This document shows positions 4,023-60,417 of a stretch of 64,000 nucleotides of DNA, piece by piece. Position 1 is the stretch's first letter. The number at the start of each line of letters is the position of its first letter. The stretch is from positions 2,282,501 through 2,346,500 of the forward strand of contig NZ_OY762653.1 in the NCBI RefSeq assembly GCF_963666195.1, given 5' to 3'. The notes below the pieces were generated by a model, which made no database searches, had not been told where the DNA came from, and saw only the letters and a list, made by a program, of their open reading frames with translations. Origin of the DNA: Trichococcus shcherbakoviae (GTDB taxonomy: Bacteria; Bacillota; Bacilli; Lactobacillales; Aerococcaceae). A program made the position numbers and the translations under genes.

Positions 4023-4200
4023 GAAGAATCGGACAAGCGCAATGCGTTTGGAGCACTGTTTGTCCGATAACCGCGAAGAATCGGACAAGCGCAATGCGTT
4101 TGGAGCACTGTTTGTCCGATAACCGTGAAGAATCGGACAACCGCAACAAAAAAGCGACGCCGTTTGTCCGATAACCGTGAAGAATCGGACAACCGCAACA
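4023..4200. repeat. 52-bp-period hairpin array, TGTCCGAT family (array 1)
   Basis: The motif GAAGAATCGGACAA begins at 4023, 4075, 4127 and 4179, an exact 52-bp step. Each unit carries an inverted repeat, TTGTCCGAT then an 11-base loop (AACCGYGAAGA) then ATCGGACAA, separated by a spacer. Spacers 1 and 2 are identical (containing GCGTTTGGAGCACTG) while the third differs in sequence but not in length. It lies between the convergent ends of the AbrB-like and DegV genes. No open reading frame or known RNA is evident. Confidence 0.9.
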
Positions 4201-4205
4201 AAAAA

Positions 4206-4237
4206 GCGGCCGTCTCCAAGAGACGGCCGCTTTTTTT
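4206..4237. terminator. terminator between convergent AbrB-like and DegV genes
   Basis: Ten-base arms GCGGCCGTCT and AGACGGCCGC are followed by seven T on the plus strand and preceded by a run of A, so it can work in both directions. Confidence 0.85.
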
Positions 4238-4254
4238 GACTGAAGCAACTATTG

Positions 4255-5106
4255 TTATTCGTATTTCTTCAGGAAGAACAAGCCCAGCGTCCCCAGCCCG
4301 GTATGCGAGCTGATCGTGGAACCGATCGTGTTCACATAGATGCGGCGCGGATGGAAATGCTCTTCGATGTATTGACGCATTTCTTCGACTGCTTCGGCAT
4401 CGTCGCTGTGGCAAAGGAAAACGTTCTGTTCCTGGATCATGTCCGCTTCATCGCGCAAGCGTTCATACATCCGGTTCAGGACCTTTTTGCGCCCGCGCAG
4501 TTTTTCGACGGGTACCAATTCACCATTGATGACTTCCAATAACGGTTGGATATTCAGCAAGCCCCCAAAAAAGGCGCTGGATTTCGAAAGTCGGCCGCCT
4601 TCGGCAAGATAATTCAAATCCTTGACCGTAAACAGAGATACGACGTTGGCAGACGTGAAACGGACACGCGATTCAATCTCATCCAAAGTAAAACCAGCCT
4701 CGCGCATTTCGATTGCTTCTACGACGGACAAGCCTTCACCGACGGAAGCACTCATGGAGTCGACAATCCGCAGATCAAAGTCCGGGAACTCCTCTTTCAG
4801 TTGTTGGTAAGCCAGATAAGCGGCCTGGTAAGTGCCGGAAAGTTTGGCGGAAAGGGAAATATAGATGCCCGATTCGCCGGCTTCCGCCGCTTTCCGGAAA
4901 CCTGAAAGGAATTTCTCCAATGACACTTGGCTCGTTTTCGGATGACCGCCGCGTGCGATCATTTCGTAGACTTTATCGGCTTGGATTTCGATTATATCTT
5001 CGTATTCGCCGGTATCCAGCAGAGTGGTCAACGGGAAGACTTCCACATCATTCTCCTGCAGATAGGCATAGGCCAGATCACAAGCACTATCGGTAAATAT
5101 TTTCAT
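4255..5106 (-). CDS. DegV-family fatty-acid-binding protein
   Basis: A soluble protein of 283 residues of the DegV/FakB family, which bind a single fatty acid; FakB members present it to the FakA kinase for phosphorylation and entry into phospholipid synthesis. Family marks are KIFTDSACDL at the N-terminus, TSQVSLEKFLSGF near residue 80 and VDSMSASVGEG near 135. I place the start at the ATG ending at 5106 because AGGAGGCG lies 8 bases upstream; an upstream in-frame ATG would add 11 residues without a ribosome site. A promoter with TATACT sits near 5159-5164. No fakA gene is nearby, so whether it works as FakB is inference. Confidence 0.85.
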   Translation of the reverse strand: MKIFTDSACDLAYAYLQENDVEVFPLTTLLDTGEYEDIIEIQADKVYEMIARGGHPKTSQVSLEKFLSGFRKAAEAGESGIYISLSAKLSGTYQAAYLAYQQLKEEFPDFDLRIVDSMSASVGEGLSVVEAIEMREAGFTLDEIESRVRFTSANVVSLFTVKDLNYLAEGGRLSKSSAFFGGLLNIQPLLEVINGELVPVEKLRGRKKVLNRMYERLRDEADMIQEQNVFLCHSDDAEAVEEMRQYIEEHFHPRRIYVNTIGSTISSHTGLGTLGLFFLKKYE

Positions 5107-5245
5107 CAGTAACGCCTCCTCTAGCGCGAGTTCTTTCACGGGATATTCCGTGGACTACTCTACAGTATAACACGTTTCGGCCGTTTGGAAAATTTCAGCG
5201 CTACGGCTTCATGAAGTGGGCCGGAGCGGAGTCAGGAACAATCGG

Positions 5246-7030
5246 TCAATCGTTCAATTCGCCGAGTTCCTCTTTGATCAGCAGCGCCGTCTTCTCGGGG
5301 ATGCCCAATGCTTTGAGGTCTTCGTAGCTGGCTTCGCGGATGTTCTTCATCGTCTTGAAATGCTTCAGGATCTTCGTGCGGGTTTTCGGCCCGACGCCTT
5401 CGATCTGGTCCAATTGCGAAGCGATGCTGTTCTTGGCGCGCACTTGGCGGTGGAAGGTGATTGCGAAGCGGTGGACCTCTTCTTGGATCCGCTGCACAAG
5501 ATGAAAGGCTTGGCTGTTCGGACTGAGTTCCACGATTTCATCCTTCTCGCCGAAGATGAGCGAAGAAGTCTTGTGCTTCGTGTCCTTGACCATGCCAGCC
5601 ACCGGTATGTCCAGTCCGAGCTCGTCCTCAAGCACTTCCTTGGCGGCATGCACCTGCACTTTGCCGCCGTCCATCAGGATCAGATCAGGCATGGCGCGTC
5701 CTTCGCGCAGCAAACGGCTGTAGCGGCGGCGGATGACTTCCTGCGTCGTCGCGAATTCATTGCTGCCTTCGACAGTTTTGACTTTGTATTTCCGGTAGTT
5801 TTTGCGTTCCGGCTTGCCGTCCTTGTAGACGACCATCGCTGAGACCGGGTTGGTTCCCTGGATGTTCGAATGGTCGAACGACTCGATAATCTCCAGATAT
5901 TCGATGCCGAGCGCCTCCGAAAGTTCCTGGATGGCGCCGACCGTCTTGTGGGTGTCGCGCTCGATCAGCATGAACTTCTCAGTCAGCGCCAGTTCGCTGT
6001 TCGTGATCGCAAGATCGAGGATGCTGCGCTTGCTGCCGCGGACAGGCGTGTGCACTTTCGTTCCGAGCGCTTCCTGCAGCAGCTCGGTATCGACGCCTTT
6101 CGGTACGAGGACTTCCTGCGGCAGGATGTGATTGGGATCCTGATAGAACTGCATGATGAAGGAAGCCAGCTCTTCCTCCGGCGTGTCGTAGCAAGGGAAA
6201 AGGGCAGCTTCGCGCTTGATGATCGAAGACTGCCGCAGCAGGAACACCTGGATCGACAGCCAACCTTTGTCCATATGGAAGGCGAAGACGTCGCGGTTTG
6301 TGTAGTCGCGGGACATGACCGTCTGTTTTTCGACAGTCGCCTCGATGTAGCTGATCTGATCGCGGTAATCGGCAGCCTGTTCGAAGTTCAGGCTGTCGGC
6401 GGCGCGGTGCATCTTTTCCCGCAGATCCTTTTTGATTTCCTTGACTTCGCCGTTCAGGAAAGCGGCGATCCGTTTGATCTGGGCATCGTATTCCTCTTTA
6501 GACACCTCATGGTCGCAGCAGCCGATGCATTGGCCCATATGGTAATAAAGGCAGGCGCGTTTGGAATTCTTGGCGCACTTGCGCAGCGGGTAGATCTTCT
6601 GGATGAATTCCTGCGTCTCCGTCGCCGCGTAGACGTGCGGATAGGGACCGAAGTAGATGCCGCCGTCATCCTCGACAGTCGAAGTGATGAGAAGCTGCGG
6701 ATCCTTTTCGTTCGTGACCTTCAGATAGGGATACATCGTCCCTTGCTTCAGCTTGATGTTGTATTTGGGCTGGTAACGCTTGATCAGGTTGATCTCCAGC
6801 AGCAGCGATTCCTTGTTCGTTTTGGTGACGATCGTTTCGAACCGGTCGATGTCCGCGACCAACAGCTGCGTCTTGCCTTCGTGCTTGCTGTGGAAGTACG
6901 ATTTCACGCGGTTCTTCAGATTTTTGGCCTTGCCGATGTAGATGATTTCGTCATCCTTGTCCCGCATGATGTAGCAGCCGGGCAAGTCGGGCAGCAACGC
7001 CAATTTTTGGTTGATTTCTTCTCTGCTCAT
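5246..7030 (-). CDS. uvrC: excinuclease ABC subunit C
   Basis: Subunit of the UvrABC nucleotide-excision repair nuclease that cuts on both sides of a DNA lesion. The 594 residues show the full family order: GIY-YIG nuclease domain at the N-terminus (GCYIMRDKDD, IIYIGKAKNLKNRV), a cysteine cluster near 160-180, a UVR motif near 200-235 (AADSLNFEQAADYRDQI), the RNase H-like endonuclease domain (LILMDGGKVQVHAA) and a C-terminal helix-hairpin-helix pair (IEGVGPKTRTKIL). The ATG at 7030 gives the standard MSREEINQKL start; the longer frame upstream lacks a ribosome site. It is divergent from the MFS gene, with TATACT as a likely -10 near 7060-7070. Confidence 0.95.
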   Translation of the reverse strand: MSREEINQKLALLPDLPGCYIMRDKDDEIIYIGKAKNLKNRVKSYFHSKHEGKTQLLVADIDRFETIVTKTNKESLLLEINLIKRYQPKYNIKLKQGTMYPYLKVTNEKDPQLLITSTVEDDGGIYFGPYPHVYAATETQEFIQKIYPLRKCAKNSKRACLYYHMGQCIGCCDHEVSKEEYDAQIKRIAAFLNGEVKEIKKDLREKMHRAADSLNFEQAADYRDQISYIEATVEKQTVMSRDYTNRDVFAFHMDKGWLSIQVFLLRQSSIIKREAALFPCYDTPEEELASFIMQFYQDPNHILPQEVLVPKGVDTELLQEALGTKVHTPVRGSKRSILDLAITNSELALTEKFMLIERDTHKTVGAIQELSEALGIEYLEIIESFDHSNIQGTNPVSAMVVYKDGKPERKNYRKYKVKTVEGSNEFATTQEVIRRRYSRLLREGRAMPDLILMDGGKVQVHAAKEVLEDELGLDIPVAGMVKDTKHKTSSLIFGEKDEIVELSPNSQAFHLVQRIQEEVHRFAITFHRQVRAKNSIASQLDQIEGVGPKTRTKILKHFKTMKNIREASYEDLKALGIPEKTALLIKEELGELND

Positions 7031-7171
7031 CCGTTTCAATCCTTTTACTTTTAGTTGAGAATAGTATAACATGAATGGAAACATACGTTCAGCCGTTTGA
7101 TTCCAAATGAAGGTGAACGCAGTCATTTTGGGGACACATCACCGTGCCCACAGCAAGGAAGTGAAAGTAGT

Positions 7172-8419
7172 GTGATAAAGAATATGAAATATGAAAAGTG
7201 GCAGCGTCAAACGGCTCTCTTTCTGGGCAGTCAGACGATTTCCCTGTTCGGCTCGTCGCTTGTCCAATACGCGATATTCTGGTATCTGACCTTGGAAACG
7301 CAGTCCGGCGTCATCATGACCTTGTCGACCATCTTCGGTTTTCTGCCGACTTTCTTCATCTCTCCATTCGCTGGGGTGTGGGCCGACCGCTATAACCGGA
7401 AGCGCCTGATCGTCCTTTCCGACGGCATCACCGCGCTCTCGACATTGGTGCTGGTCCTGCTGTTTTTGGCCGGGCAGCGCTCGATCTGGATTCTGTTGGC
7501 GACATCGGCCATCCGCGCGATAGGGGCGGGCATCCAGATGCCGGCGGTCGGCGCCATCCTGCCGCAGATCGTGCCGGAAAAGGAATTGACCCGGATCAAC
7601 GGGCTCAACGGCAGCATCCAGGCCGTCGTCATGCTGGTTTCGCCGATGATCAGCGGCGCGCTTTACCAATTTGCGCCGATGGAAGGCATTTTCATGATCG
7701 ATATCGTTACAGCGGCTTTGGCGATCGCCATCATGGTGTTCCTGCTGAAAGTCCCGACGCATGAAAAAGCCAGCCAGGAACAGGTCAGCAATTACCTGCA
7801 GGACATGAAGCTCGGCTTCCGCTACATCCAAAATCACGCCTTCATCAAAAGGCTGTTCCTCTATTTTTCGCTTGCCTTCTTGATGGCCGCTCCGGTGTCG
7901 TTCCTTTCCCCTTTGCAGGTGGCGCGCTCGTTCGGCGACGACGTCTGGCGCTTGACGGCGATCGAAATCGCCTTTTTCATCGGGATGATAGGCGGCGGCC
8001 TCTGGATCGCCTCATGGGGCGGCTTCAAGAACCGGATCCATTCCATCGCTTTTGCGATCGGAGCCATGGGCCTGTGCACTTTCGGGATGGGTGTCATCCC
8101 GAATTTCTGGATCTACCTCTTCCTGATGGGTCTCGTCGGCCTCGTCATCCCGTTGCTGAACGCGCCGAGCATGACGCTGCTGCAGGAAAAGATCGAGGAA
8201 GATTTCCTCGGCCGGGTCTTCGGTGTCCAAAGCATGGTCTCCAGTTCGATGATGCCGTTGGGGATGCTGATCTTCGGACCGCTTGCGGACCGGATGGCGA
8301 TCGAAATCCTGATGGCCGTATCAGGCGCGTTGCTGATGGTCGTGGCCTTCTTCGCAATCCGTGACCGGGTACTGTTGGAGGCCGGCAAGCCGGAACCTTC
8401 GAACACCGGGAAAGAATGA
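7172..8419 (+). CDS. MFS exporter (EntS/MefA-like)
   Basis: A 12-helix major facilitator superfamily protein of about 415 residues in the MFS_3 group, which includes macrolide (Mef) and siderophore (EntS) exporters. The N-terminus has the typical TALFLGSQTISLFGSS, followed by the cytoplasmic loop motif WADRYNRKRLIV. I chose GTG at 7172 because AAGGAAG lies about 10 bases upstream; the ATG at 7184 is an alternative, and the longer frame from 7097 runs back towards the uvrC promoter. The substrate cannot be inferred; drug or metabolite export are both plausible. Confidence 0.85.
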   Translation: MIKNMKYEKWQRQTALFLGSQTISLFGSSLVQYAIFWYLTLETQSGVIMTLSTIFGFLPTFFISPFAGVWADRYNRKRLIVLSDGITALSTLVLVLLFLAGQRSIWILLATSAIRAIGAGIQMPAVGAILPQIVPEKELTRINGLNGSIQAVVMLVSPMISGALYQFAPMEGIFMIDIVTAALAIAIMVFLLKVPTHEKASQEQVSNYLQDMKLGFRYIQNHAFIKRLFLYFSLAFLMAAPVSFLSPLQVARSFGDDVWRLTAIEIAFFIGMIGGGLWIASWGGFKNRIHSIAFAIGAMGLCTFGMGVIPNFWIYLFLMGLVGLVIPLLNAPSMTLLQEKIEEDFLGRVFGVQSMVSSSMMPLGMLIFGPLADRMAIEILMAVSGALLMVVAFFAIRDRVLLEAGKPEPSNTGKE

Positions 8420-8431
8420 AACTAAAGACTG

Positions 8432-8459
8432 GAGCTGCCGCATTTGGCAGCTCTTTTTT
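8432..8459 (+). terminator. terminator after the MFS gene
   Basis: Perfect arms GAGCTGCC and GGCAGCTC are followed by TTTTTT. Confidence 0.85.
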
Positions 8460-8463
8460 GTGC

Positions 8464-8650
8464 TTGTCCGATACTATGCGTTTATCGGACAAGCAGCGCC
8501 TGATGTATACGGCGGATGTCCGATACTTTGCGGTTATCGGACAAATAGTGCTCTAAGTGCTATGCGGTTGTCCGATATTTTATGGTTATCGGACAAGTAG
8601 CGCTTCAAACGCGACGCGGTTGTCCGATACTATGCGTTTATCGGACAACC
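8464..8650. repeat. 52-bp-period hairpin array, TGTCCGATA family (array 2)
   Basis: TGTCCGATA begins at 8465, 8517, 8569 and 8621, three exact 52-bp steps. Each is followed by a 9-base loop and TATCGGACA, giving a near-perfect 9-10 bp stem. Spacers (for example AGCGCTTCAAACGCGACGCGG) are reverse-complement relatives of the array 1 spacer, so this is the same element in the other orientation. It fills most of the 324-base gap between the convergent MFS and nrdJ genes; the rest of the gap is two terminators. Confidence 0.9.
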
Positions 8651-8694
8651 GAAGCGCAAGCCAAGCAGAAAAGCATGATTGTCGGCAAACCACA

Positions 8695-8734
8695 AAGAAG
8701 AACCCGTCCAAAAATCAGACGGGTTCTTCTTCAT
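8695..8734. terminator. bidirectional terminator after nrdJ
   Basis: Fourteen-base arms AAGAAGAACCCGTC and GACGGGTTCTTCTT surround a 9-base loop. In the leftward direction it lies just downstream of the nrdJ stop. Confidence 0.8.
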
Positions 8735-8743
8735 TTGATCAGT

Positions 8744-11317
8744 TTATAAGCCGCATTTCAGCTGCGCGCCGCAATTGGTGCAAGTGTTGCAGCCGCCCAG
8801 ATCTTCGACCGTACCTTGTCGGCAGATCGGGCAGGTGTCGCCGATTTCGTTGCCGATTGTGACATCGGTGGACGTGAGATTGGCTATCGAATCAACCAGG
8901 AAAGTCTTGTCCTTGTTGATTTTGACGTGCTCTTTCTCTTCCTCAAGCTTGGCTTCGTCATCCCAAACGTTTTCTTCGGCTTTCAGCGTCAGCACCTGCG
9001 AATCGCGGCTGCCGTCGACGTAGACCGTACCGCCCTTGGCTCCGCCCAGGTAAAGGCGTTCGTAGATTTTCTCGACTTGATCGACGGTATAGCCTTTCGG
9101 CGTATTCACCGTTTTCGAGATGGAGCTGTCGACCCAGCGCTGGATCGTCGTCTGCACATCGACGTGCTCTTCAGGGGCAAGCGTCATGGCTGTCGCGAAA
9201 TAATCAGGCAACTGGTTCGGATCGGCATCGGGATGACGATCCAGATATTCTTGGACGATATCCGCCTTCACTTCGATGAATTTGCCGAGACGGCCGCTGC
9301 GGTAATACGTGAACGAGAAGTAGGGCTCCAAACCGGTTGAAACGCCGGCCATCGTGCCTGTCGATCCGGTAGGCGCCACCGTCAACAGATGTGAGTTGCG
9401 GATGCCGTATTTCAGGACGCCTTCACGGACATGCTCAGGCATTTTTTTCATGTAGCCAGTGTTGATGAAACGCTCGCGCAGGATCTGCGTCTCTTTTCCG
9501 GTTTGTCCGACCAGGAACGGGAAACTGCCGCGCGTCTTCGCCAACTCGATGCTTTCCTCGTAGGCCGCCACTGCGATCGTTTCGAAGACTTGATCGATCA
9601 GCTGCAGGCTTTCCAGTGAACCGTAGCGGACGCCGCAATAGATCAGCATATCCGCCAAGCCCATGATCCCCAAGCCAATCCGGCGTTCGCCGAGCGCTTG
9701 TTTTTTGTTCTCCTCCAGGAAGTAAGGGGTGGAGTCGATGACGTTGTCCTGCATATGGATGCCGGTGCGGACGGTCTGTTCCAATTTGGCGAAGTCGACC
9801 ATCTGCAGGTCCTTGTTGACCATTTCGGCCAAGTTGACTGCGGCCAAGTTGCAGACGGAATAGGCTGCCAATGGCTGCTCCCCGCAAGGATTGGTGGCGA
9901 CAACTTTTTGACCGTAGGCTACCGCATTCGTCATCTTGTTGGCGTTGTCGATAAAGAAGATGCCAGGCTCTGCCGCGTAAGTCGCGCAGACATTGATCAG
10001 CCTCCACAATTCGCGGGCTTTGACGGTCCGGTAGGTGCGGACAGCGTTGCCGGTAGCTTCCCATTCGCGGACATCGCCGCAGTTGGTCCATTCAGCGTCA
10101 TAGTGCGCCATCGCGTCCGCGTCGTAGTGTTCGACATCCGGGAAACGCAGCGCATACTCTTCATTCCTCATGACGGCATCCATAAAGTCATCGGTGATGC
10201 AGACGGAAATGTTGGCGCCGGTCAGGAACTCAGGATTGTTGACTGTATAAGTGCCGCCATCGCGCAGTTTTTTCTCTGCTTCATGGATGACCGAGGCGTC
10301 AAAACCGCCGTGACCTGGGATGTGCTTGTAGTTGACGATGCCTGTGTACATGTTGATGTCTTTTGAAGAGAACGGCGTGAAATGCAGCTTTTCCTTCGCC
10401 AGCATGCGGATCTGCTCATCCTCGAAGTTTTCGATGATGTAGCGGAGGATGCGCGGATTCTGCATCTTGGAAATGATGAATTCGAAGATATCCGGATGCC
10501 AGTCGGCCAGCATGATCATCTGGGCGCCGCGACGGGATCCGCCTTGTTCGACCAGATGCGTCAGCTTGGCGATGTCGTCCATCCAGGAAACGGAGCCGGA
10601 AGAGCGGCCGTTGACGCCTTTCACTATTGTGTGGCGCGGACGCAGCGTCGAACCGTTCGAGCCGACGCCGCCGCCACGGCTCATGATTTCCATGACTTTT
10701 TTGCGGTGGTCGGAAATGCCGCCGCGCGAGTCGGGCACGAAAGGCATGACGTAACAGTTGAAATAGGTGACATCGGTACCGGAGCCGGCGCCGTAGAGCA
10801 CGCGCCCAGCCGGGATGAAGTTCAAGGCTTTCTGTTCTTCGTAGAATTTCAGGAACGCTTCATGGCGAAGTTCCGGCGTGATTTCGACCTCGGCCAGGCC
10901 ATGCGCATTGCGCATCGCAATCTGTTCGTAGAAAAGCTCCAGCGGTTTGTCCAACGTCAGGATCCGGCGCGTCACGATGCCGCCTTCCTCGACTTCGAAA
11001 TCATCGATGTTGTGTTGGTATTCCTCGGACACTTTGATGCGGACAGTCTGTTCCTTGTGGTTTACGGAAAGGACGGTTCCTGTTCCGCGGGCCGGATATT
11101 TCGGGTCCTCCTTGACAGTCAGAATCACGATATCGCCTTCGGACAGGGTCTCCTTGGTGGAATCCTTATAGGAGTAGCGATCCAACATGACGAGGCGTGA
11201 CACGCCCTCATAGGTCACGTTCATATCCTCCGTAATCGGAAACACATGCGGGAACCGCTCAATGTCCTTGTTCAATTTTTCGAATCCTGCTTTAAATGTG
11301 GTCTTTGTTGCATCCAC
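8744..11317 (-). CDS. nrdJ: adenosylcobalamin-dependent (class II) ribonucleotide reductase
   Basis: Reduces ribonucleotides to deoxyribonucleotides with a cobalamin-generated radical, so it needs neither oxygen nor an activating enzyme. The 857 residues include the class II motifs YFNCYVMPFVPDSRGG near 190, RGGGVGSNGSTLRPR near 215, the catalytic NPCGEQPLAAYSVCNLA stretch near 490 and the APTGSTGTMAGVSTGLEP loop near 665. A C-terminal cysteine-rich zinc-binding tail (CPIC..CNTC..CG) follows, which normally relays electrons. I prefer GTG at 11317, with GGGAG 8 bases upstream, over the frame start at 11326 that lies inside that ribosome site. NrdR-like boxes precede it. No cobalamin synthesis gene or cobalamin riboswitch is visible in the window. 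Confidence 0.93.
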   Translation of the reverse strand: MDATKTTFKAGFEKLNKDIERFPHVFPITEDMNVTYEGVSRLVMLDRYSYKDSTKETLSEGDIVILTVKEDPKYPARGTGTVLSVNHKEQTVRIKVSEEYQHNIDDFEVEEGGIVTRRILTLDKPLELFYEQIAMRNAHGLAEVEITPELRHEAFLKFYEEQKALNFIPAGRVLYGAGSGTDVTYFNCYVMPFVPDSRGGISDHRKKVMEIMSRGGGVGSNGSTLRPRHTIVKGVNGRSSGSVSWMDDIAKLTHLVEQGGSRRGAQMIMLADWHPDIFEFIISKMQNPRILRYIIENFEDEQIRMLAKEKLHFTPFSSKDINMYTGIVNYKHIPGHGGFDASVIHEAEKKLRDGGTYTVNNPEFLTGANISVCITDDFMDAVMRNEEYALRFPDVEHYDADAMAHYDAEWTNCGDVREWEATGNAVRTYRTVKARELWRLINVCATYAAEPGIFFIDNANKMTNAVAYGQKVVATNPCGEQPLAAYSVCNLAAVNLAEMVNKDLQMVDFAKLEQTVRTGIHMQDNVIDSTPYFLEENKKQALGERRIGLGIMGLADMLIYCGVRYGSLESLQLIDQVFETIAVAAYEESIELAKTRGSFPFLVGQTGKETQILRERFINTGYMKKMPEHVREGVLKYGIRNSHLLTVAPTGSTGTMAGVSTGLEPYFSFTYYRSGRLGKFIEVKADIVQEYLDRHPDADPNQLPDYFATAMTLAPEEHVDVQTTIQRWVDSSISKTVNTPKGYTVDQVEKIYERLYLGGAKGGTVYVDGSRDSQVLTLKAEENVWDDEAKLEEEKEHVKINKDKTFLVDSIANLTSTDVTIGNEIGDTCPICRQGTVEDLGGCNTCTNCGAQLKCGL

Positions 11318-11345
11318 AGTAATCACTCCCTTATTTATGGCGAAA

Positions 11346-11393
11346 ACACTAGATGTTGTGCTGTCGGTTTGTTTCTCATACCATATATGTTAA
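11346..11393 (-). promoter_or_regulatory. probable tandem NrdR boxes upstream of nrdJ
   Basis: ACACTAGATGTTGTGC at 11346-11361 fits the NrdR box (ACACWATATATWGTGT) well, and a weaker match, ATACCATATATGTTAA, starts at 11378. The two are 32 bp apart, the three-turn spacing characteristic of NrdR operators. The ATP/dATP-sensing NrdR repressor is therefore the likely regulator. The second box is degenerate. Confidence 0.55.
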
Positions 11394-11672
11394 TTCTGTT
11401 CACCGGATAAATCAAGGGGAACAGTCAGTAAGTTGGAGTGTGCAAACGGATGAAAACGTTATTCGGATGGAAGGGGATGCGTTTGTAATAATATATCGGC
11501 CAATAAGAATAGGGCGTTGTGCGTCGGGATAGAGTCGTCGGCTGTTGCGGAAAGACTGAATGCCGAACACCCCAACAAATCCGTCCCACCCAGAATGCGA
11601 AACAGTAACCACTCAGCCCTTGCGAAAGCTATAATAAAGGCAGAAAGAACCACAAAAGAAAGGAGCCCGAGC

Positions 11673-18080: not shown

Positions 18081-18166
18081 ATTCCCCGCCAAAACCTTTT
18101 GGCGGGGCAAAACGTCTGCAGATAGCACGAGATTCCCCGCCAAAACCCATTTGACGGGGAATTCCA
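18081..18166. repeat. inverted-repeat pair, CCCCGCC family, 51-bp step
   Basis: ATTCCCCGCCAAAAC begins at 18081 and again at 18132, a 51-bp step. Each is followed by its inverted partner (TTTTGGCGGGG; TTTGACGGGGAAT), making an 11-13 bp stem. A third partial half, ATTCCACCGCCAAAC, is at 18161. It sits between the convergent sstT and PTS genes. It shares only layout and period, not sequence, with the other arrays of the window. Confidence 0.7.
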
Positions 18167-33304: not shown

Positions 33305-33386
33305 GCATGTTCACTTGGTGCTTACGGGTACTTGAATGTGTTTTTTCATATCTGGGTTCGATCGGAGATGGCTGGGTTGTTGGGGT

Positions 33387-33650
33387 TGTCCAATAACCGG
33401 GAAGAATCGGACAACGCGAGCAAGCATACGACATCCGCATCGCATTTGGTGCGCTACTTGTCGGATAACCGCATAGTATCCGACATCCGCATCGCATTTG
33501 GTGCAGTGCTTGTCGGATAACCGCAATGTATCCGACAACCTCACCGCATTTGGTGCACTGCTTGTCGGATTACTGCAAAGTATCCGACATCCGCATCGCA
33601 TTAGGAGTCCTGCTTGTCCGATAACCGCAAAGAATCGGACAACGCGAGCA
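33387..33650. repeat. 52-bp-period hairpin array, TGTCGGATA/TGTCCGATA family (array 3)
   Basis: The stem start TGTC(G/C)GAT occurs at 33459, 33511, 33563 and 33615, three exact 52-bp steps; an outlying first copy is at 33387. In the middle copies the left arm is TGTCGGATA and the right arm TATCCGACA, while the outer copies have TGTCC...GGACA; both arms change together so pairing is kept. Spacers (GCATCGCATTTGGTGCACTGC type) match the array 1 spacer closely. It fills most of the 518-base gap between the convergent fructokinase and ftsH genes; the rest is the two terminators. Confidence 0.9.
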
Positions 33651-36358: not shown

Positions 36359-36490
36359 CTCCGGCAATGGGCCGCTGCACGGAGGAGTGCACCAAAAAAT
36401 AGCGCCAGCTCCGGGAAAGCCCATCTCCCCGGAGGAGAGTATTCAGAATGTGGGGCGAACTCCGGCGAATCCTGCGTTCACCGGAGGAAA
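36359..36490. repeat. 50-51-bp-period hairpin array, CTCCGG family (array A)
   Basis: CTCCGG begins at 36359, 36409 and 36460 (steps of 50 and 51). Each is followed after 14-17 bases by CGGAGGA or GGAGGAG, the inverted partner. It lies in the 509-base gap between the divergent marR and LacI genes, at least 130 bases from either start. The rest of the gap holds the marR operator region on the left and a LacI promoter region on the right, which includes ATTAGTCAACTAAT at 36521 and TATACT at 36559. Confidence 0.8.
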
Positions 36491-36623
36491 CTTTAATACA
36501 GGGACCGCAAAGGAATTTCAATTAGTCAACTAATCTTTTAAATTCATCGGAAATAGAATATACTGATAAAAAGATCAATTTTTTATAGATCAAATAGTCA
36601 CATAGGAGAGAGGAGGGTTTTCC

Positions 36624-45394: not shown

Positions 45395-45800
45395 TTACCG
45401 GCGTGAGGTCTGTTGGCTTTGGATGTATTGCTGAATCATTTCAAGCTGTGCCCACCCGCTGTGGAATCGAAATAGCTATTCGACCCAAGCGTGGGTAGCT
45501 TTGTCGTCAGTTTCTTAAACTCCTGTCTCAGCACGCGGGAAGAAGTTTCCTTTATACGTTTGGCTGCTTTGTGAACCCCGAATTGTCGGTCTATATCCAA
45601 TACGAGGTGAACGTGGTCTGGCATGATTTCCATTTCCTGAATTTCGACGGACAGACCGGTGTACGTTTCTAGAACGAGCTCATTTAAGCGTGCCGCTACT
45701 GGTCCGACAAGGACCGTTCGCCGATACTTTGGACACCAGACAACATGGTAGGTACAAGAATAAGTGATGTTATCATTTGATTTATTTTTTTATTTTCCAT
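45395..45800 (-). pseudogene. tnpA: TnpA Y1 transposase pseudogene of the IS605-type element
   Basis: From an ATG at 45800 (MENKK), a slip in a poly-A run joins it to NDNITYSCTYHVVWCPKYRR. The frame is then open through MPDHVHLVLDIDRQFGVHKA (HxH metal site HVH) to GSNSYFDSTAGGHSLK and a stop. The expected C-terminal end with the catalytic tyrosine, AQLEMIQQYIQSQQTSRR, is present in another frame, ending at 45395. At least two indels separate the parts. It precedes tnpB by 35 bases. Confidence 0.8.
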
Positions 45801-48252: not shown

Positions 48253-48580
48253 CCGTGAAACCTCTCCTTTTTCCTCGAATAAGAACTAGACATAAGATAG
48301 CACGTATCCGGGCTGAAAGCAACCGTTTTATATGCGTTAATAATACAGTTTTATTTGCTGTTATAAACGAGTTTCATTAAAAAGATTGAACATAATTAGC
48401 ATATTTTCTCATAAAAGTCGTTTAGGCTGCTATAGATGTTTATACAGTTCGGAAAACAGTTTGTGAAATAGGGAACAGCTGTGGCAAGATGACACGAAAG
48501 TTACTGAAAACAAAAACATACAAAAGATGTCACAAAGAGCATATGGCATTACTCAAAGCGAAATCGAGAGCGGGGCAGAA

Positions 48581-48720
48581 TTGTCGAATGCTCGAGGAAC
48601 ATCCGATTATTTGACCCGGGCGCGGGACGAAATTGTCGAATGCTCAGTAACATTCGACAATTTGACCCCAGAACGAAGCGGAATTATCGAATATTCGAGG
48701 AACATTCGATAATTCCGCTC
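48581..48720. repeat. 51-52-bp-period hairpin array, TTGTCGAATG family
   Basis: TTGTCGAATG begins at 48581 and 48633 and TTATCGAATA at 48684 (steps of 52 and 51). The second copy pairs AATTGTCGAATG with CATTCGACAATT (12 bp). The third pairs GGAATTATCGAAT with ATTCGATAATTCC (13 bp), with G and C exchanged for A and T on opposite arms so pairing is kept. The stretch TTGACCC follows copies one and two. It lies in the 546-base gap upstream of the binding-protein gene. The part from 48253 to 48580 shows only a likely AT-rich promoter region. A terminator-like GACCCGGATCGG...CCGATCCGGGTC lies at 48737-48769. Confidence 0.8.
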
Positions 48721-52151: not shown

Positions 52152-52232
52152 TGTAAGCGCATTAATAATTTTTGTGTTTCTGAGGAAATTGCGTTACACT
52201 TAAGGTAATAAGTAGAAGGAGTGTGGGTTATC

Positions 52233-53111: not shown

Positions 53112-53124
53112 TGCCAATCAAATC

Positions 53125-53156
53125 AAAGCTGGGGGCTTCCGAGTCTCCAGCTTTTC
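53125..53156 (+). terminator. terminator after the aldo/keto reductase
   Basis: AAAGCTGG and CCAGCTTT pair around a 14-base loop, followed by TTCTT. Confidence 0.65.
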
Positions 53157-53209
53157 TTATGGGGGAAAGGGGTTATGGTTGAAAAATATGCAGAGCAAGG
53201 GTGGAATAA

Positions 53210-53911: not shown

Positions 53912-53921
53912 ATATGAGGAG

Positions 53922-53953
53922 AGCATCCCAGCTGCATCGGGATGCTTTTTTCT
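53922..53953 (+). terminator. terminator after the AlkA-like gene
   Basis: AGCATCCC and GGGATGCT form an 8-bp stem followed by T. Confidence 0.75.
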
Positions 53954-54067
53954 TTTCTGATGCGGTTTGTGCCCTAAAAAGGTGGTATCGCTAAGCAATC
54001 CGACCCCGATTAGTGTAGAATAGGGATAGAATGTTCAAAAGAAAACAACGAGTGAGGGGATAAAACC

Positions 54068-55075
54068 ATGATCAGATTAGGCATCATCGGAACAAGCAGC
54101 ATTGCGCATGCATTCGCAACAGCGGCCAAAGCATCCGGACAATTCGAAATAAAAGCGGTCTACAGCCGCAACCAGTTCACCGCCCAAAGCTTTGGAGAAG
54201 GCTACGGTGCGGATATTTTCGTCACGGACTTGGAAAAATTCACTGCCTTGGAGGAAGTCGATGCCATCTACATCGCATCACCGAATAGCCTCCATTTCCA
54301 GCAAGCCATGTCGGCCATCGCCAATGGCAAGCATCTCATCGTCGAAAAGCCGATCTTCTCGAATACAAAAGAATGGGAAGCTGCCTTCTCGGCGGCCAAA
54401 GCCAATAATGTCTTCCTGTTTGAAGCCGCTCGCCATCTGCATGAGCCAAACTTCGCGCTGGTCAAGAATGAAATCGCCAAATTGGGCGAAATCGACGGCG
54501 CCAGCTTCACTTATGCCAAATATTCCTCCCGCTACGACCAGGTTTTGGCCGGCGAGGAACCGAACATCTTCTCACTGAATTTTTCCGGTGGGGCACTCTC
54601 CGATTTGGGCGTGTACTTGCTGTATGCTGCCATCGCATGGTTCGGTGTGCCAGAGGAAGTCGATTATGCCGCCAAGAAAATCCAGACGGGCGTTGACGGA
54701 GCCGGCACGATGCTGCTGAAATATCCGTATTTCACAGCCAGCCTGCACACGTCAAAAATTTACAATTCCTTCGCCGATTCAGAAATATACAGTGCCAAAA
54801 AAACACTGATTCTCGATGGGGTCAATTTGATCCAATCGGTGGAACTGGTGGACGGCGAGACCAACGAACGGTACCAATTGGCCGAAAAAGCATCCGGACA
54901 TTTTATGGATGATGAGGTCCGTGCATTCGCGCGCGTCTTGAATGATCCGGAAAATCCTGATACTATAGAAGACTATGAACGTTGGACGCAGATCAGCCGA
55001 GACGTCAACCGGACAATGGAAGCTCTGCGTAAAAAAGCAGGCATCGTTTACCCAGCGGATTTAGATGAGGCATAG
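54068..55075 (+). CDS. Gfo/Idh/MocA-family oxidoreductase
   Basis: NAD(P)-dependent sugar or inositol-type dehydrogenase of 335 residues. The Rossmann motif is at the start (IRLGIIGTSSIAHAFATAAK), followed by AIYIASPNSLHFQQAMSAI near 75 and the conserved Lys in HLIVEKPIFSNTKEW near 95. The C-terminal domain has FSGGALSDLGVYLLYAA near 180. It resembles YhhX/YulF-like members of unknown substrate. Start ATG after GAGGGGATAAAACC. Confidence 0.9.
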   Translation: MIRLGIIGTSSIAHAFATAAKASGQFEIKAVYSRNQFTAQSFGEGYGADIFVTDLEKFTALEEVDAIYIASPNSLHFQQAMSAIANGKHLIVEKPIFSNTKEWEAAFSAAKANNVFLFEAARHLHEPNFALVKNEIAKLGEIDGASFTYAKYSSRYDQVLAGEEPNIFSLNFSGGALSDLGVYLLYAAIAWFGVPEEVDYAAKKIQTGVDGAGTMLLKYPYFTASLHTSKIYNSFADSEIYSAKKTLILDGVNLIQSVELVDGETNERYQLAEKASGHFMDDEVRAFARVLNDPENPDTIEDYERWTQISRDVNRTMEALRKKAGIVYPADLDEA

Positions 55076-55150
55076 GTCGGACGGATGCTTCCGCGCGAGG
55101 TATGCACCGCAGCCTAAAAACAGGCTGCATTATAAGAAATGAGGAAATAA

Positions 55151-56476
55151 ATGATGATGATGGAAGAAATGGCAATGCCATTCGAAAAATACTGGCATGA
55201 GATGAGTTTTCAGCTGCCGACGCCGATCCAAGAAAATGTCTTCAAGCCATTGATGGAAGGCAAGGATGTTGTTGGGCTATCGCCGACCGGTACCGGCAAG
55301 ACGTTGGCTTATGCTATCCCGTTGCTGCAAAAAACGGATGCCAACAAGGAATTGCAATTGTTGGTTCTCGTGCCTTCGCAGGAATTGGCGCACCAAGTAG
55401 GGCACGTTTTGGCTGAATGGGGTTCCCTGAAGGACTTGAGCGCGCAAGTGATCATCGGTGGCGCGAACGTTGGCCGTCAGATCGACAAGCTGAAGGAAAA
55501 GCCGGAAATCGTGGTCGGAACACCGGGACGATTGCTGGAATTGGCAAACCAGAAAAAACTGAAATTGCACAACATCAAGACGGTCATCCTGGATGAGGCG
55601 GACTATTTGATGCAGGAAGAACATCTGAGTGCCTTGCGCGAATTGATCAAAAAAACGCCGGGATCCCGCCAGATGGGCTTCTTCTCGGCTACGAACAGTG
55701 AGAATCTGAAGGACATCCAGAAATGGTTCAACACGGAGCCGCTTTGGTTCGACACAACCAAAGAAGGTCAGTTCATGGACCAGACTGTCCATGGCTTCAT
55801 CGAGGCACCGACGCGGAAACGTGCGGAAATGCTGCGCCGTTTGGGCAACCTGGAAGGCATGCAGGCGCTTGTCTTCGTGAATTCTACGCAGGAACTTGAT
55901 TATTTGGCGGGAAAACTGCAGTTCGAGGGCATCAATGTCCGCATGCTGCACAGCGATTACGGCAAGGCACAGCGTAAGAGCGCCATGGATGAATTCCGCA
56001 AAGGTAACGCGACGTTCCTGCTGACGACGGATGTTTCCGCCCGTGGGATTGACATCCAAGATCTGCCTTACGTCATCCATTACGATCTGCCGCTTTCGAA
56101 GGAAACCTATCTGCACCGCTCCGGACGTACGGGCCGGATGGGCAAAAAAGGGGTTGTACTGTCACTTGTTAATGACCGCAACAGCCGCGATATCAAACGC
56201 TTTGCGCCGCATCCGGATGAAGTAAAAGAATTCTTCATCTACGGCGGTGAGCTCGTCAACGAACTGCCGAGCCGCGAATCACGTGACGCTATCCGCGATG
56301 CGCAGAAACCGGCCGCAGCCAAAGCAGCTAAAATCCAGAAAAAAGTTGCCTTGAAAGAGGAGGAGACTGCGAAGGAAGCAGTTGCCAAAAAAACGAAAAA
56401 GAAAAAAATCCGCTCCAAAGATCAGAAAAACAAAGGCGCGCGCCGCAAGCCAACAGAAAAAAAGCCAACTGAATAA
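55151..56476 (+). CDS. DEAD-box RNA helicase
   Basis: ATP-dependent RNA helicase of 441 residues. All core motifs are visible: Q motif LPTPIQENVF, Walker A SPTGTGKT near 40, Ia VPSQELA, TPGR near 120, II DEAD near 143, III SAT near 170, and the second RecA domain with TTDVSARGID and HRSGRTGRMGKKG near 320. A C-terminal tail of about 60 residues is rich in Lys and Ala, suited to RNA binding. It is closest in layout to YfmL/CshC-type accessory helicases involved in ribosome assembly and cold growth. Start ATG 55151 after GAGGAAATAA. Confidence 0.93.
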   Translation: MMMMEEMAMPFEKYWHEMSFQLPTPIQENVFKPLMEGKDVVGLSPTGTGKTLAYAIPLLQKTDANKELQLLVLVPSQELAHQVGHVLAEWGSLKDLSAQVIIGGANVGRQIDKLKEKPEIVVGTPGRLLELANQKKLKLHNIKTVILDEADYLMQEEHLSALRELIKKTPGSRQMGFFSATNSENLKDIQKWFNTEPLWFDTTKEGQFMDQTVHGFIEAPTRKRAEMLRRLGNLEGMQALVFVNSTQELDYLAGKLQFEGINVRMLHSDYGKAQRKSAMDEFRKGNATFLLTTDVSARGIDIQDLPYVIHYDLPLSKETYLHRSGRTGRMGKKGVVLSLVNDRNSRDIKRFAPHPDEVKEFFIYGGELVNELPSRESRDAIRDAQKPAAAKAAKIQKKVALKEEETAKEAVAKKTKKKKIRSKDQKNKGARRKPTEKKPTE

Positions 56477-56506
56477 TTGAAGAACTTTCCGCATTCTGCC
56501 GGAAGG

Positions 56507-56539
56507 ACAGCCCCAAACCGCGCTTGCGGAGGCTGTCCG
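56507..56539. other. GC-rich hairpin after the helicase gene
   Basis: GGACAGCC and GGCTGTCC enclose an inner pair CCGC/GCGG. No good T-run follows immediately (ATTTTTG comes about 25 bases later), so it may be a weak terminator or an RNA-stability structure. Confidence 0.4.
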
Positions 56540-56740
56540 CGGCGAAGTGCGGATTTTTGCGTTCGGCGAGATGCGGGCCGGAACTCCAGCCAGTTGCGCG
56601 TTCACTAGTCCCAATAGGCAGAATTCCTTCCCCGGTCCGTTGCGGCGAACCGCTCGCACCTGTATAATCAAAGACAGAGAATGAATATGTATACGGAACA
56701 AAGTCCGCTATGCAGCACAAGAAAGGGGTGGGCGCTAACT

Positions 56741-57721
56741 ATGGTCACCATCAATGACATCGCCAAAATGGCCGGTGTGGCGAAGAGCACCGTTTCCCGC
56801 TATCTGAACGGCGGGGCGGTCAGCGAAAAAACAAAGGCGAAGCTGGATGAGATTGTTGCCGAGAACGACTATAAACCGAATAAATTTGCCCAAAGCCTGA
56901 AAGCGAAGCGCACGCATATGGTCGGGACGATCATTCCGCGTCTGAATTCCTTTGCGACGAATGAAGCGTTGCGGGGCTTGGAGAACAGTTTGCGCCTTTC
57001 CAAAAACCAACTGTTGATCACGAATGCGGATCAGAGCCGCGAGCGCGAAATCGAAGCCATCTCCACCTTGGCGAAGCAGCGCGTCGACGGCATCGTCTTC
57101 TTCGCCGCTGCCATCACACCGGCTCATGTCAAGGCGTTCGAAGAGGCTGATGTTCCCGTCGTCATCGTCGGGCAATCGCATCCCGATTTCCACTGCATCA
57201 TCCACGATGACGAGAAGGCGGGCCGTTCGGTCGGAGCGTACGCGGTTGCGAACGGACACAGGAACATTCTTGTCTTCGGGGTCGACGAATCCGATACGGC
57301 GGTCGGGGTGACCCGACGCAACGGCATCGAGCAGGCTTTCGAAGGCCATGATATCGACTATACCTTCGTCAAAACGAGCTTTGCCATGAAGGACGCCTAC
57401 GAAAAGGCACTGGAAATCCTGCCGCAATCCAAAGCGACTTTCGTGATCGGCGCGACCGACAATATCGCGATCGGGATCATGCGCGCTGCGCATGAACTGC
57501 AGATTGAAATCCCCAACCAGCTTTCCTTAGCGGGGTTCGGCGGCTACGAAATCACCGAAGCGGTCTATCCGCGCATCACAACCGTCCATTATCCTTTCCA
57601 GGAGTCCGGAGAATTGGCGGCCAAAATTCTGATGGAATTGATTCTGGAAAAAGAAGTCGACCTGATCCAAACGCTGGATAACGAGTTGTTGATCAGGGAA
57701 TCTACCCAAAAAAATGCTTAG
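56741..57721 (+). CDS. LacI-family regulator (SacR/ScrR-like)
   Basis: A repressor of 326 residues with helix-turn-helix TINDIAKMAGVAKSTVSRYL, hinge YKPNKFAQSLKAK and a sugar-binding domain. The short recognition pattern STVSRYLNGG and the sensor sequence are reminiscent of sucrose regulators ScrR/SacR. No sugar genes adjoin it, so its targets are likely elsewhere, possibly the GH32 operons; that is speculation. The ATG at 56741 is chosen because the helix-turn-helix begins at once; AAAGGGG lies about 13 bases upstream. Confidence 0.85.
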   Translation: MVTINDIAKMAGVAKSTVSRYLNGGAVSEKTKAKLDEIVAENDYKPNKFAQSLKAKRTHMVGTIIPRLNSFATNEALRGLENSLRLSKNQLLITNADQSREREIEAISTLAKQRVDGIVFFAAAITPAHVKAFEEADVPVVIVGQSHPDFHCIIHDDEKAGRSVGAYAVANGHRNILVFGVDESDTAVGVTRRNGIEQAFEGHDIDYTFVKTSFAMKDAYEKALEILPQSKATFVIGATDNIAIGIMRAAHELQIEIPNQLSLAGFGGYEITEAVYPRITTVHYPFQESGELAAKILMELILEKEVDLIQTLDNELLIRESTQKNA

Positions 57722-57749
57722 ACATAACTTAGGCAACGATCAATAAATA

Positions 57750-57789
57750 AAAACCGACACGCAACCTAATGCTTGCGTGTCGGTTTTTT
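57750..57789 (+). terminator. terminator after the SacR-like regulator
   Basis: AACCGACACGCAA and TTGCGTGTCGGTT form a 13-bp stem followed by T. Confidence 0.85.
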
Positions 57790-57929
57790 GAGCCTTCCAC
57801 AATACACAGGAGAAGCACAACCCTTCACAACCGCTTCAAAAAAAACGAAACTGAGAATCCGTACGTTTTCTCCACATTTTTATTGTCACCCTTTAAAAAT
57901 ACGGGTTTGCATCTATTTTTTGCGGTAAC

Positions 57930-58088
57930 GTGTTCGATGTCTGCACGACCCATACTTACGACGACAAAATCGCCGCCATCCGCGCTGCGCAAAAGGCAGG
58001 TCTGACTGTCTGCAGCGGCGGCATCATCGGTTTGGGCGAGACGATGGAGGACCGCATCGATATGGTCATCGACCTGCGCGACGACTGA
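57930..58088 (+). pseudogene. bioB: biotin synthase (bioB) fragment
   Basis: The frame ending at the stop 58086-58088 reads [20 protein letters not shown], then [20 protein letters not shown] and [13 protein letters not shown]. This matches the middle of biotin synthase (CTTHTYEDR...AGxxVCSGGIxGxGE...EDRxDM). Upstream lies an in-frame stop and no trace of the iron-sulphur CxxxCxxC part; downstream the rest is gone. It is a relic of about 50 codons with no ribosome site. It implies that an ancestor carried biotin synthase at this locus. Confidence 0.75.
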
Positions 58089-58253
58089 CGGGACCATATA
58101 GACCCGCCTTCTCCTCTTCGCAATATCCTTTTGAATACAGCTGACAGAAGGGGTTATCTGTTGAATTATTGTTTATCGCGGTTGATTTGATAATTTAATT
58201 GCGGATTATTATATAATAAATGGATATTGTTTTTGAGGGGGAAGATCGGAAAA

Positions 58254-59072
58254 ATGAATAATGCAAAAGGATTAAAAAAAGTTTTGGCGGTTCTGGGGGC
58301 GTTCGCTTTATTGGGACTGAGTGGCTGCGGCCAAGAAGAAACGGTAGAAACGGACAGCAGTGCACAGGAAACGACGGAACTGACCTCCGAAACGACGACT
58401 GAAGAAACGACCGAAGCAGCCGCTGAGGAACATTTGGATTATGAAAACCAGGATGAATGGGACTTCGAATCCGGCGCGATGCAATCCCCGATCAATATCG
58501 AAACGAATGCAACCGAAGCGATGACCACGGACGGTTCCTTGACATTGGACTATGCGGAGGAGATCATCGATGTGGTCGATAACGGGCACAGCATCGAAAT
58601 CGAAGACGGCGGCCAAGCGACGATTGCCGGACGCGGTTTTGAATTGGCGCAATTCCATTTACATTCCCCGAGCGAGCACACGGTGGATGGGGAGAGTTTC
58701 CCGATCGAACTGCATTTTGTCCACAAGGCACAGGATGGCCGCTTAGCAGTCATCGCGGTCTTCTTTAAAGAAGGAACAGAAAATGCTGCTTTTCAGGCGA
58801 TCCTGGATGATGTGCAGGCAAACGAAGAATCAGACGTTGCGAGCGGCCTCAGCCTGAACGTTGCCGAGCTGCTTCCAGCCAACAAAAGCTACTAACATTA
58901 CCTAGGTTCCTTGACGACACCGCCGCTGACCGAAAATGTCGAGTGGTACGTGATGGCGAACCCTGTGGAAGTTTCCGCGGAACAAATTGCAGCCTTCAAC
59001 GAATATTATCAAGGCAACAACAGAGAGGTCCAACCATTGGGCGAGCGTTCCGTTCTGAAATATGAAGAATAA
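58254..59072 (+). pseudogene. alpha-carbonic anhydrase interrupted by one in-frame stop
   Basis: Exported lipoprotein-type alpha-carbonic anhydrase (CO2 hydration). The ATG at 58254 gives a signal peptide with lipobox LLGLSGCGQ, a Thr/Glu-rich linker and the catalytic domain: SPINIETNATEA, zinc ligands in AQFHLHSPSEHTVDG (HxH) and the third His in ELHFVHKAQDGRLAV. At 58893-58895 a TAA follows NKSY, ending the readable protein at 213 residues. The same frame then continues HYLGSLTTPPLTENVEWYVM and ends at 59070 with KYEE, the normal C-terminus, including the TTPP loop with the catalytic threonine. One base (TAC or CAA to TAA) explains the break. Either a recent nonsense mutation or a base-calling error. 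Confidence 0.85.
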
Positions 59073-59106
59073 CGATCCTGTTTTGGCGATTTGAGCGCCT
59101 TGGCTG

Positions 59107-59154
59107 AAAAAGTTCCGTCCCCCCGATTCGTATTGGTGCGGGCGGAACTTTTTT
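59107..59154 (+). terminator. terminator after the carbonic anhydrase
   Basis: AAAAAGTTCCG and CGGAACTTTTT pair, with a G/C-rich inner part, followed by T. Confidence 0.75.
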
Positions 59155-59172
59155 GAATGCTCTGATCGAGGA

Positions 59173-59243
59173 TGCAAAGGAATCCGTATCGTGATTACAA
59201 CATACAGAAAGAACGGATACGGATGCACTTTTTTTGTTATAAT
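59173..59243 (+). promoter_or_regulatory. hairpin with T-run plus -10 box ahead of the AEC gene
   Basis: ATCCGTATC (59182) and GATACGGAT (59216) form a 9-bp stem, extended by TGC/GCA across a bulge, followed by CTTTTTTTG. An extended -10, TGTTATAAT, overlaps the end of that T-run. The stem could be a second terminator for the upstream region or insulate the AEC promoter. Confidence 0.5.
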
Positions 59244-59272
59244 TAAGGAAAAACGCGAGCAGGGGGAACGTA

Positions 59273-60184
59273 ATGGGGGAAATAGCAGCAAAAGCCGCAT
59301 CATTGATTTTGATCATCGTGATCGGCTACGTCATCAAACGGATCGGGTGGGTGAGCGCAGCTGATTTTCCGAAATTTTCGAAAATCGTACTGCGGATCAC
59401 GTTGCCCTGCGCCCTGATCACCAGTTTCAACACGTTCGATATCACCTACAACTTGCTGTTTTTGACCGCAATCGGCCTCCTCGCTAACTTGATCCTGCAA
59501 ATCACCGGATATCTGGTGAACCAACGGAAAGGCGGTATAGCGCAGGCTTTCGGAATCATCAACCTCGGCAGCTACAATGTCGGGGCCTTTGCGATGCCAT
59601 ATATCGCCGGATTGATGGGCCCGCAGTCGATCATTTTCGCATCCCTTTTCGATGTCGGCAATTCATTCGGAGCTGCCGGAATTGGCTATGGTTGGTCCCG
59701 TTCTGTTGCGGATGAGAAGCAAAAAACAACTTTAGGCGGCTTCCTCAAACTCATGTTTCTTTCGCCGTTGTTCGATACATACTTGATCCTGTTGCTGATG
59801 CGCCTCCTCGGGCTGCAATTACCGGATGAGGTCATCACCTTTACGTCCACGGTGGGCGGCGCCAACACATTCCTGGCGATGCTGATGATCGGAATCGGTT
59901 TGGAATTGGGCTTGGATGCGCACCGCTTCAAGCTGGCCTTCAAATACTTGGCCATCCGCTACGGCTTTTCGCTGATTTTCTCCATCCTGACCGTGCTCTT
60001 CCTGCCGGTATCAATGGTCGTGAAGACGATCCTCTGCATGCTGTTCTTTTCGCCGATCGCATCCATGGCGACCGGATTCACCGACGAAGCGGGCGGGGAC
60101 GTCGAAACCTCCGCCTTCATGAATTCCGTTTCCATCCTGATCGGAATCTTCGCGCTGCCGCTCGTTTTGGCGGTCATGGGATAA
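59273..60184 (+). CDS. AEC-family (auxin efflux carrier-like) transporter
   Basis: A ten-helix membrane protein of 303 residues. Family marks are KRIGWVSAADFPKFSKIVLR and ITLPCALITSF near the start, GSYNVGAFAMPYIAGLMGPQ near 105 and SPIASMATGFTDEAG near the end. Bacterial AEC proteins export or import malate, malonate and similar acids. The start follows AGCAGGGGGAACGTA. Substrate not assignable. Confidence 0.88.
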   Translation: MGEIAAKAASLILIIVIGYVIKRIGWVSAADFPKFSKIVLRITLPCALITSFNTFDITYNLLFLTAIGLLANLILQITGYLVNQRKGGIAQAFGIINLGSYNVGAFAMPYIAGLMGPQSIIFASLFDVGNSFGAAGIGYGWSRSVADEKQKTTLGGFLKLMFLSPLFDTYLILLLMRLLGLQLPDEVITFTSTVGGANTFLAMLMIGIGLELGLDAHRFKLAFKYLAIRYGFSLIFSILTVLFLPVSMVVKTILCMLFFSPIASMATGFTDEAGGDVETSAFMNSVSILIGIFALPLVLAVMG

Positions 60185-60206
60185 AAATGTCAAATGAAAA
60201 AAATTC

Positions 60207-60241
60207 AAAACCATCCGTTCTTGTGTAGCGGGTGGTTTTTT
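60207..60241 (+). terminator. terminator after the AEC gene
   Basis: AAAACCATCCG pairs with CGGGTGGTTTT (one G-T pair), followed by T. Confidence 0.7.
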
Positions 60242-60259
60242 GTTGGGCGGAATTTGTTT

Positions 60260-60417
60260 CCTCCGTCGAACGCAGGTTACGCCGGAGTTCGGCCCACATA
60301 TGCCTCTTTTCCTCCGATGAGGGGGCGCTCGCCGAAGTTGGCCCTAAGATGTTACTGTCGTCCTCCGGTGAGCACCCCCTCGCCGGAGAAGGGCGCCGCA
60401 CGTATCGTTCAGCTCCG
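60260..60417. repeat. 50-51-bp-period hairpin array, CTCCGG family (array B)
   Basis: CCTCCG begins at 60260, 60311 and 60362, with GCTCCG at 60412 (steps 51, 51, 50). Inverted partners GCCGGAG, GCCGAAG and GCCGGAG follow. The reverse complement of the last unit of array A (36460-36487) matches the first unit here almost base for base, loop included (GAACGCAGG). It occupies most of the 434-base gap before the MFS gene. The remainder, 60430-60618, holds an AT-rich stretch with the likely MFS promoter. Confidence 0.85.

Follow-up and report, generated by a model that had tools for sequence, protein, structure and literature searches.

The seven arrays of intergenic hairpins described here lie in a 64,000-bp stretch of DNA (hereafter the window; G000:C1:2282501-2346500) from the genome of Trichococcus shcherbakoviae, which is 2.93 Mb in one contig. 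We examined the arrays by direct reading and by an exhaustive hairpin search, and found all seven in the places, and with the steps of 50-52 bp, that a first-pass annotation of the same sequence had given. They are listed below, together with the terminator-like hairpin that borders the first of them.

4022..4198, strand., family P array with stem TTGTCCGAT: three full hairpins, starting at 4060, 4112 and 4164 (steps 52, 52), and a left half-unit (4022-4036) also in the 52 register; flanked by convergent gene ends
4200..4236, strand., terminator-like hairpin bordering the first array; array-free congeners have a different terminator here
8461..8651, strand., family P array with stem TTGTCCGATA: four hairpins, starting at 8464, 8516, 8568 and 8620 (steps 52, 52, 52); flanked by two terminator-like hairpins (8432-8453 and 8695-8731)
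18081..18166, strand., CCCCGCC family: two hairpins, starting at 18084 and 18135 (step 51)
33386..33646, strand., family P array with stems TGTCGGAT (three hairpins) and TTGTCCGAT (last): starts at 33458, 33510, 33562 and 33614 (steps 52, 52, 52); an extra hairpin at about 33386 lies 72 bp upstream of the 33458 hairpin, outside the 52-bp register
36359..36491, strand., CTCCGG family: three hairpins, starting at 36359, 36409 and 36460 (steps 50, 51), within a larger element (about 158 bp) that has many copies across the genus
48579..48719, strand., family P variant TTGTCGAAT: three hairpins, starting at 48581, 48633 and 48684 (steps 52, 51)
60256..60420, strand., CTCCGG family: three hairpins and half of a fourth, starting at 60260, 60311, 60362 and 60412 (steps 51, 51, 50)

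These arrays resolve into three families, rather than having the mutually unrelated stems that the first-pass annotation described. Four of them, at 4.0, 8.5, 33.4 and 48.6 kb, belong to family P (TGTCCGAT, TGTCGGAT, TTGTCGAAT; window stems TTGTCCGAT, TTGTCGGAT and TTGTCGAAT) and have a common 9+11+9 layout, in which each 52-bp unit is made up of two complementary arms of 9 bp, the loop of 11 nt between them, and a spacer of 23 nt. A single CTCCGG family accounts for the arrays at 36.4 and 60.3 kb, and the array at 18.1 kb represents a third family, CCCCGCC, which recurs with a period of 52 at genome positions 1021420 and 1926910.

The 52-bp period also dominates hairpin distances outside the window. 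Among perfect hairpins with arms of at least 8 bp in 864 kb of the genome, we identified 68 pairs with a centre-to-centre distance of 52 bp, at most four pairs at every other distance between 20 and 100 bp, and none at 52 bp in a block-shuffled control, indicating that the repeat steps are not scattered; approximately half of the 864 kb was selected for containing family P, so that the 68 pairs do not represent a genome-wide rate. The exact hairpin TTGTCCGAT-N11-ATCGGACAA had 65 matches in the genome (0 for the reversed pattern) and was present in 8 of 11 congeners; none of 89 genomes representing other genera in the family and order contained it. Among the 400 members of a class-wide sample, TTGTCCGAT was present, besides its own genome, in only two genomes, both of one other genus. 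We additionally identified a two-unit pattern with the 52-bp step in Mesobacillus boroniphilus, Pseudoneobacillus rhizosphaerae and Bacillus sp. isolates, in copies with different loops and with spacers that are often pyrimidine- or purine-rich. Two sequence records, MUZD01 (Sedimentibacter sp. SX930) and JAGGQZ01 (Chryseobacterium sp. ISL-80), are probably misnamed: contigs of the former match the window genome at up to 98.6%, and the latter contains Bacillus-type arrays.

The length of the family P unit is constrained. Across all Trichococcus loci read, the loop is of 11 nt in 405 of 409 cases and the step is of 52 bp in 275 of 284. Neighbouring units have accumulated 1113 substitutions in loop and spacer versus nine changes in length, or 0.81 per 100, compared with 15.0 gap openings per 100 mismatches between species in the flanking intergenic DNA of the same loci; in this sense, a constraint on spacing, as had been suggested from the window sequence, is supported. 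Loop identity between family P loci is 0.56. Spacers are 40% identical between arrays at different loci (29% when shuffled) and 80% identical inside one array; therefore, duplication and loss of whole units are ongoing, and changes in unit length are rarely kept.

Entire arrays also differ between relatives at the same site. At the 4-kb site, P arrays of approximately 3 to 13 hairpins are found in G000 (the window genome), G101, G010 and G002, a CTCCGG array in G008, and only a different terminator in five congeners. At the 8.5-kb site, the same-species assembly G101 has one hybrid hairpin versus four in G000, and at the 48.6-kb site, occupied here by the TTGTCGAAT array, the arrays of two relatives are of TTGTCCGAT and differ in their spacers; the steps at this site are 51-52 bp throughout. 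Thus, different arrays replace one another with their length kept. The proposal that the arrays do not reflect simple tandem duplication holds insofar as the low spacer identity between loci shows that they are not recent copies of one duplication; it fails insofar as duplication takes part, as seen from the whole 52-bp units by which the two same-species assemblies differ and from the likeness of units within an array. Orthologues of 4013-4253 and 8420-8740 occur as two alleles, with or without arrays, and the whole intergenic block, including the terminator, differs among congeners. A clean insertion with a target-site duplication was not seen, the alleles differing across the entire terminator block.

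We identified further dyads, unrelated in sequence, in tandem units of similar or different length. Intergenic arrays of 51 or 52 bp called by Tandem Repeats Finder (TRF) in the genome include family P and the CCCCGCC, TTCCCGG, AAACATG and TTGTCGAAT stems, and CGACAGA dyads occur at 52 bp in other Trichococcus stretches. Other genera of the same family contain TAGTTCGT dyads in 31 bp units (up to 22 units), ATTGTCA, CGCCAAA, GGATGCA, CTATTCTGTCC and further dyads in units of 40-41 bp, GTAACAACT dyads at 51 bp, and further tandem dyads at 62 bp, and Bacillaceae contain ACCCTTATA dyads at 53 bp. The sample consisted of Trichococcus, other genera of its family and some Bacillaceae, with no outgroup. 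Within it, the modal lengths of 31 clustered families were 28, 31 (two families), 40 (four), 41 (eleven), 43, 44, 51 (five), 52 (three), 53 (two) and 62 bp, with a resultant of 0.84-0.86 for periods of 10.3-11 bp that was not reached in any of 20,000 uniform draws; the phase at 10.3 bp was about zero. Similarly, 86 of 99 palindromic arrays were at most 1.3 bp from a multiple of 10.4 bp, where approximately a quarter would be expected by chance, a count to which family P contributes most; testing by family is more independent, but the clustering behind it is crude. Two earlier suggestions, that different palindromes share one geometry and that the spacing corresponds to helical turns, are thus borne out, the former by unrelated dyads at 51-53 bp or other whole-turn lengths and the latter by families at 31, 40-41, 51-53 and 62 bp.

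In G021, from another genus of the family, single intergenic regions contain blocks of several unrelated dyads, each present 2-4 times at 40-41 bp, and the blocks are linked by a recurring motif resembling AAGYGGGAAGTGA. These multi-dyad regions are:

L262:18420-19620, G021 multi-dyad region
L286:11490-12210, G021 multi-dyad region
L287:600-1230, G021 multi-dyad region

The arrays are placed at gene ends. With genes called by a simple codon-usage method, we found P arrays in 16 convergent, 13 co-directional and 0 divergent intergenic regions, versus 46, 167 and 55 for intergenic stretches of at least 150 bp (p = 1.7e-5 and 0.004); palindromic arrays in other genera were in 12 convergent, 15 co-directional and 1 divergent regions. 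On a larger scale, a 712-kb zone outside the window, from 2.552 Mb through 2.925/0 to 0.339 Mb of G000:C1, contains no family P array, with at least 35 arrays elsewhere. This zone includes the replication terminus (dnaA is at 1.648 Mb, and GC skew flips near 0.18 Mb); its probability under uniform placement is approximately 6e-5, for a pattern that was noticed post hoc. Nine 20-kb stretches inside the zone contained no 51-52 bp array.

We tentatively favour, with slightly less than even confidence, the reading that the arrays are double-stranded DNA elements beyond gene ends, whose unit length is held at whole turns and whose dyads are probably shown to a protein on one face. Each unit would consist of one dyad (inverted repeat) in a length of three, four, five or six whole turns of B-DNA, and successive dyads would therefore lie on the same side of the helix. 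The repeat itself, the phasing of unrelated dyads by whole turns, the scarcity of length changes, the position at gene ends and the turnover of whole units are directly observed, whereas the protein and the function are inferred. The factor reading this geometry along one helix face would most likely be a dyad-binding, DNA-bending or DNA-wrapping protein, putatively a nucleoid-associated protein or topoisomerase, which would dock on that face and handle supercoiling or polymerase traffic collecting where genes end and converge. New units would arise by slippage or recombination in one-unit steps, and out-of-phase units would be lost. The arrays may function as a protein array, a topological element or a roadblock; we would prefer a protein that wraps or bends DNA and acts on the supercoiling driven by transcription, along the lines suggested for BIMEs.

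Several observations weigh against this reading. No binding protein was identified in this analysis, and 14 of 21 arrays without a clear dyad also fell within 1.3 bp of a multiple of 10.4 bp. Spacing in the CTCCGG family is less strict, at 50-52.5 bp, and the CTCCGG element is tandemly repeated at approximately 180 bp (179-189 in several genomes; e.g. G001:C1:1561986-1563110), which does not correspond to whole turns. In one G021 region, phase is not continuous across the borders between different dyad blocks. Finally, homogenisation between units could be the main selection-free route to low length variation.

Because some units lacking a clear dyad are quantised too, and because phase is lost across dyad-block borders, the strongest rival explanation is a helical ruler that lies in mutation itself. 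A duplication process working in whole turns, possibly through nicking, recombination or topoisomerase action on DNA that is wrapped, would generate the unit, recombination would even out lengths, and function would not be needed. The gain and loss of whole units, and the 80% likeness of units within an array, are likewise consistent with such a process. It is harder to reconcile with a length that stays constant despite more than a thousand loop and spacer substitutions between neighbouring units, with the avoidance of divergent intergenic regions, and with the retention of dyads, and we consider it rather unlikely.

Tandem intergenic units of approximately 45-55 bp occur in other repeats of Firmicutes and mycobacteria, such as BOX and MIRU, a likeness by description and not by sequence comparison. 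The nearest systems in kind are REP/BIME and STAR. REP/BIME sequences (GTAG and CGTC families) are clustered intergenic palindromes in many copies, with proposed roles in supercoiling and mRNA stability, and REPs are placed mostly between convergent and unidirectional genes, downstream of coding regions (PMC3733652). The arrays resemble them as high-copy intergenic palindromes at gene ends, but differ in having a strict 52-bp head-to-tail unit, other sequences, a whole-turn length common to unrelated dyads, and no tracking RAYT; no constant GTAG or CGTC tag stands beside the stem in the array unit consensus sequences. STAR elements of Staphylococcus are intergenic direct repeats of a Firmicute, with a conserved motif, locus-specific spacers, units of approximately 50 nt and changes in copy number; their spacers are of 40-44 bp, they have one GC-rich motif, and their function is unknown (PMC3532100). 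Similarly, the arrays have locus-specific spacers (identity 0.40 between loci, 0.80 within) and change in unit number between same-species assemblies. In contrast, STAR units vary in length and have a single motif, whereas the arrays have many unrelated dyads, and the STAR signature T[GAT]TGTTG[GT]GGCCC[CA] (quoted in PMC5294841) is absent from the array unit consensus sequences. The arrays also have the repeat-spacer look, without spacer diversity, of 'false-CRISPR' tandem repeats, a class that gathers annotation errors of all kinds and for which no shared geometry is described (PMC5294841). Unlike CRISPR arrays, with their invariant repeats and diverse, unique spacers, they have variable loops and, inside one array, spacers of 80% identity. 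Among open-licence papers, we found none that deals with these repeats or with bacterial tandem repeats quantised by helical turns, and no family in which unrelated dyads share a whole-turn length, in agreement with the earlier statement that no described family behaves in this way.

The arrays might instead be selfish elements resembling REPs or MITEs, mobilised by a transposase and tolerated at gene ends with no host role. Dozens of dispersed family P loci show common ancestry (loop identity 0.56, spacer 0.40), arrays are present in some species and absent from others, and their gene-end placement is like that of REPs (PMC3733652). However, the co-occurring transposase that the first-pass annotation proposed to look for was not found: Y1 transposases do not track the arrays, G008 having arrays and no Y1, and G004 and G009 having Y1 and no exact family P hairpin, in a comparison where Y1_Tnp matches were mostly open frames of approximately 140-190 aa and RAYT-specific motifs were not looked at. 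There is no clean insertion boundary, and the single length for unrelated dyads would be left unexplained; we regard this explanation as improbable. The window itself contains a match to an IS200-type Y1 transposase (45436-45765, minus strand) that is interrupted by one internal stop codon and probably represents a decayed copy.

A role in RNA, in which hairpins of the 3' untranslated region would protect transcripts or take part in their processing, would be consistent with the stability of the hairpins, with their location downstream of stop codons and with the placement of some arrays before the sole terminator seen. Against this, many arrays lie past terminators, a terminator-like hairpin being present between gene and array at 21 of 40 gene ends, and no strand preference is seen: P loops are asymmetric, and the loop strand is independent of transcription (5 sense, 4 antisense). 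The stems hardly covary, with no double changes in the eight inner pairs except in one switching pair, mostly from C-G to G-C in whole arrays, a switch that the search pattern itself permits. Rfam covariance models at gathering scores identified one tRNA only in the window and no array match, and helical quantisation would be unexpected for single-stranded RNA. Loop strand, near-absent stem covariation and terminator placement fit better with recognition of DNA than with RNA pairing, and an RNA role appears very unlikely. Simple derivation of every array from a single tandem duplication of 52 bp, already disfavoured, is more improbable still: the weak loop (56%) and spacer (40%) identity between P loci points to a common ancestor of the P arrays, but unrelated dyads occur at 51-53 bp or other whole-turn lengths in Trichococcus (CTCCGG, CCCCGCC, TTCCCGG, AAACATG, CGACAGA), other genera (GTAACAACT, TAGTTCGT, ATTGTCA, GGATGCA) and Bacillaceae (ACCCTTATA), and length is conserved far past neutral expectation.

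The favoured reading, of double-stranded DNA elements with units of whole turns, may have a broader form, which we consider possible if doubtful: a general helical ruler, shared by Trichococcus, further genera of the same family and some Bacillaceae, that would hold intergenic arrays of unrelated dyads to whole turns because a factor reading structure and not sequence would assemble on one side of the helix where genes end. Were this true, it would mean a class of chromosomal elements defined by geometry and not by sequence. Repeat families are usually defined by their sequence; here, the common property is a length in whole turns, across unrelated dyads and several genera, in arrays that occupy sites where converging transcription stresses DNA. 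It thus becomes testable whether bacteria have elements on which selection acts through geometry and nothing else, and whether the helix sets the unit length of short tandem repeats in general.
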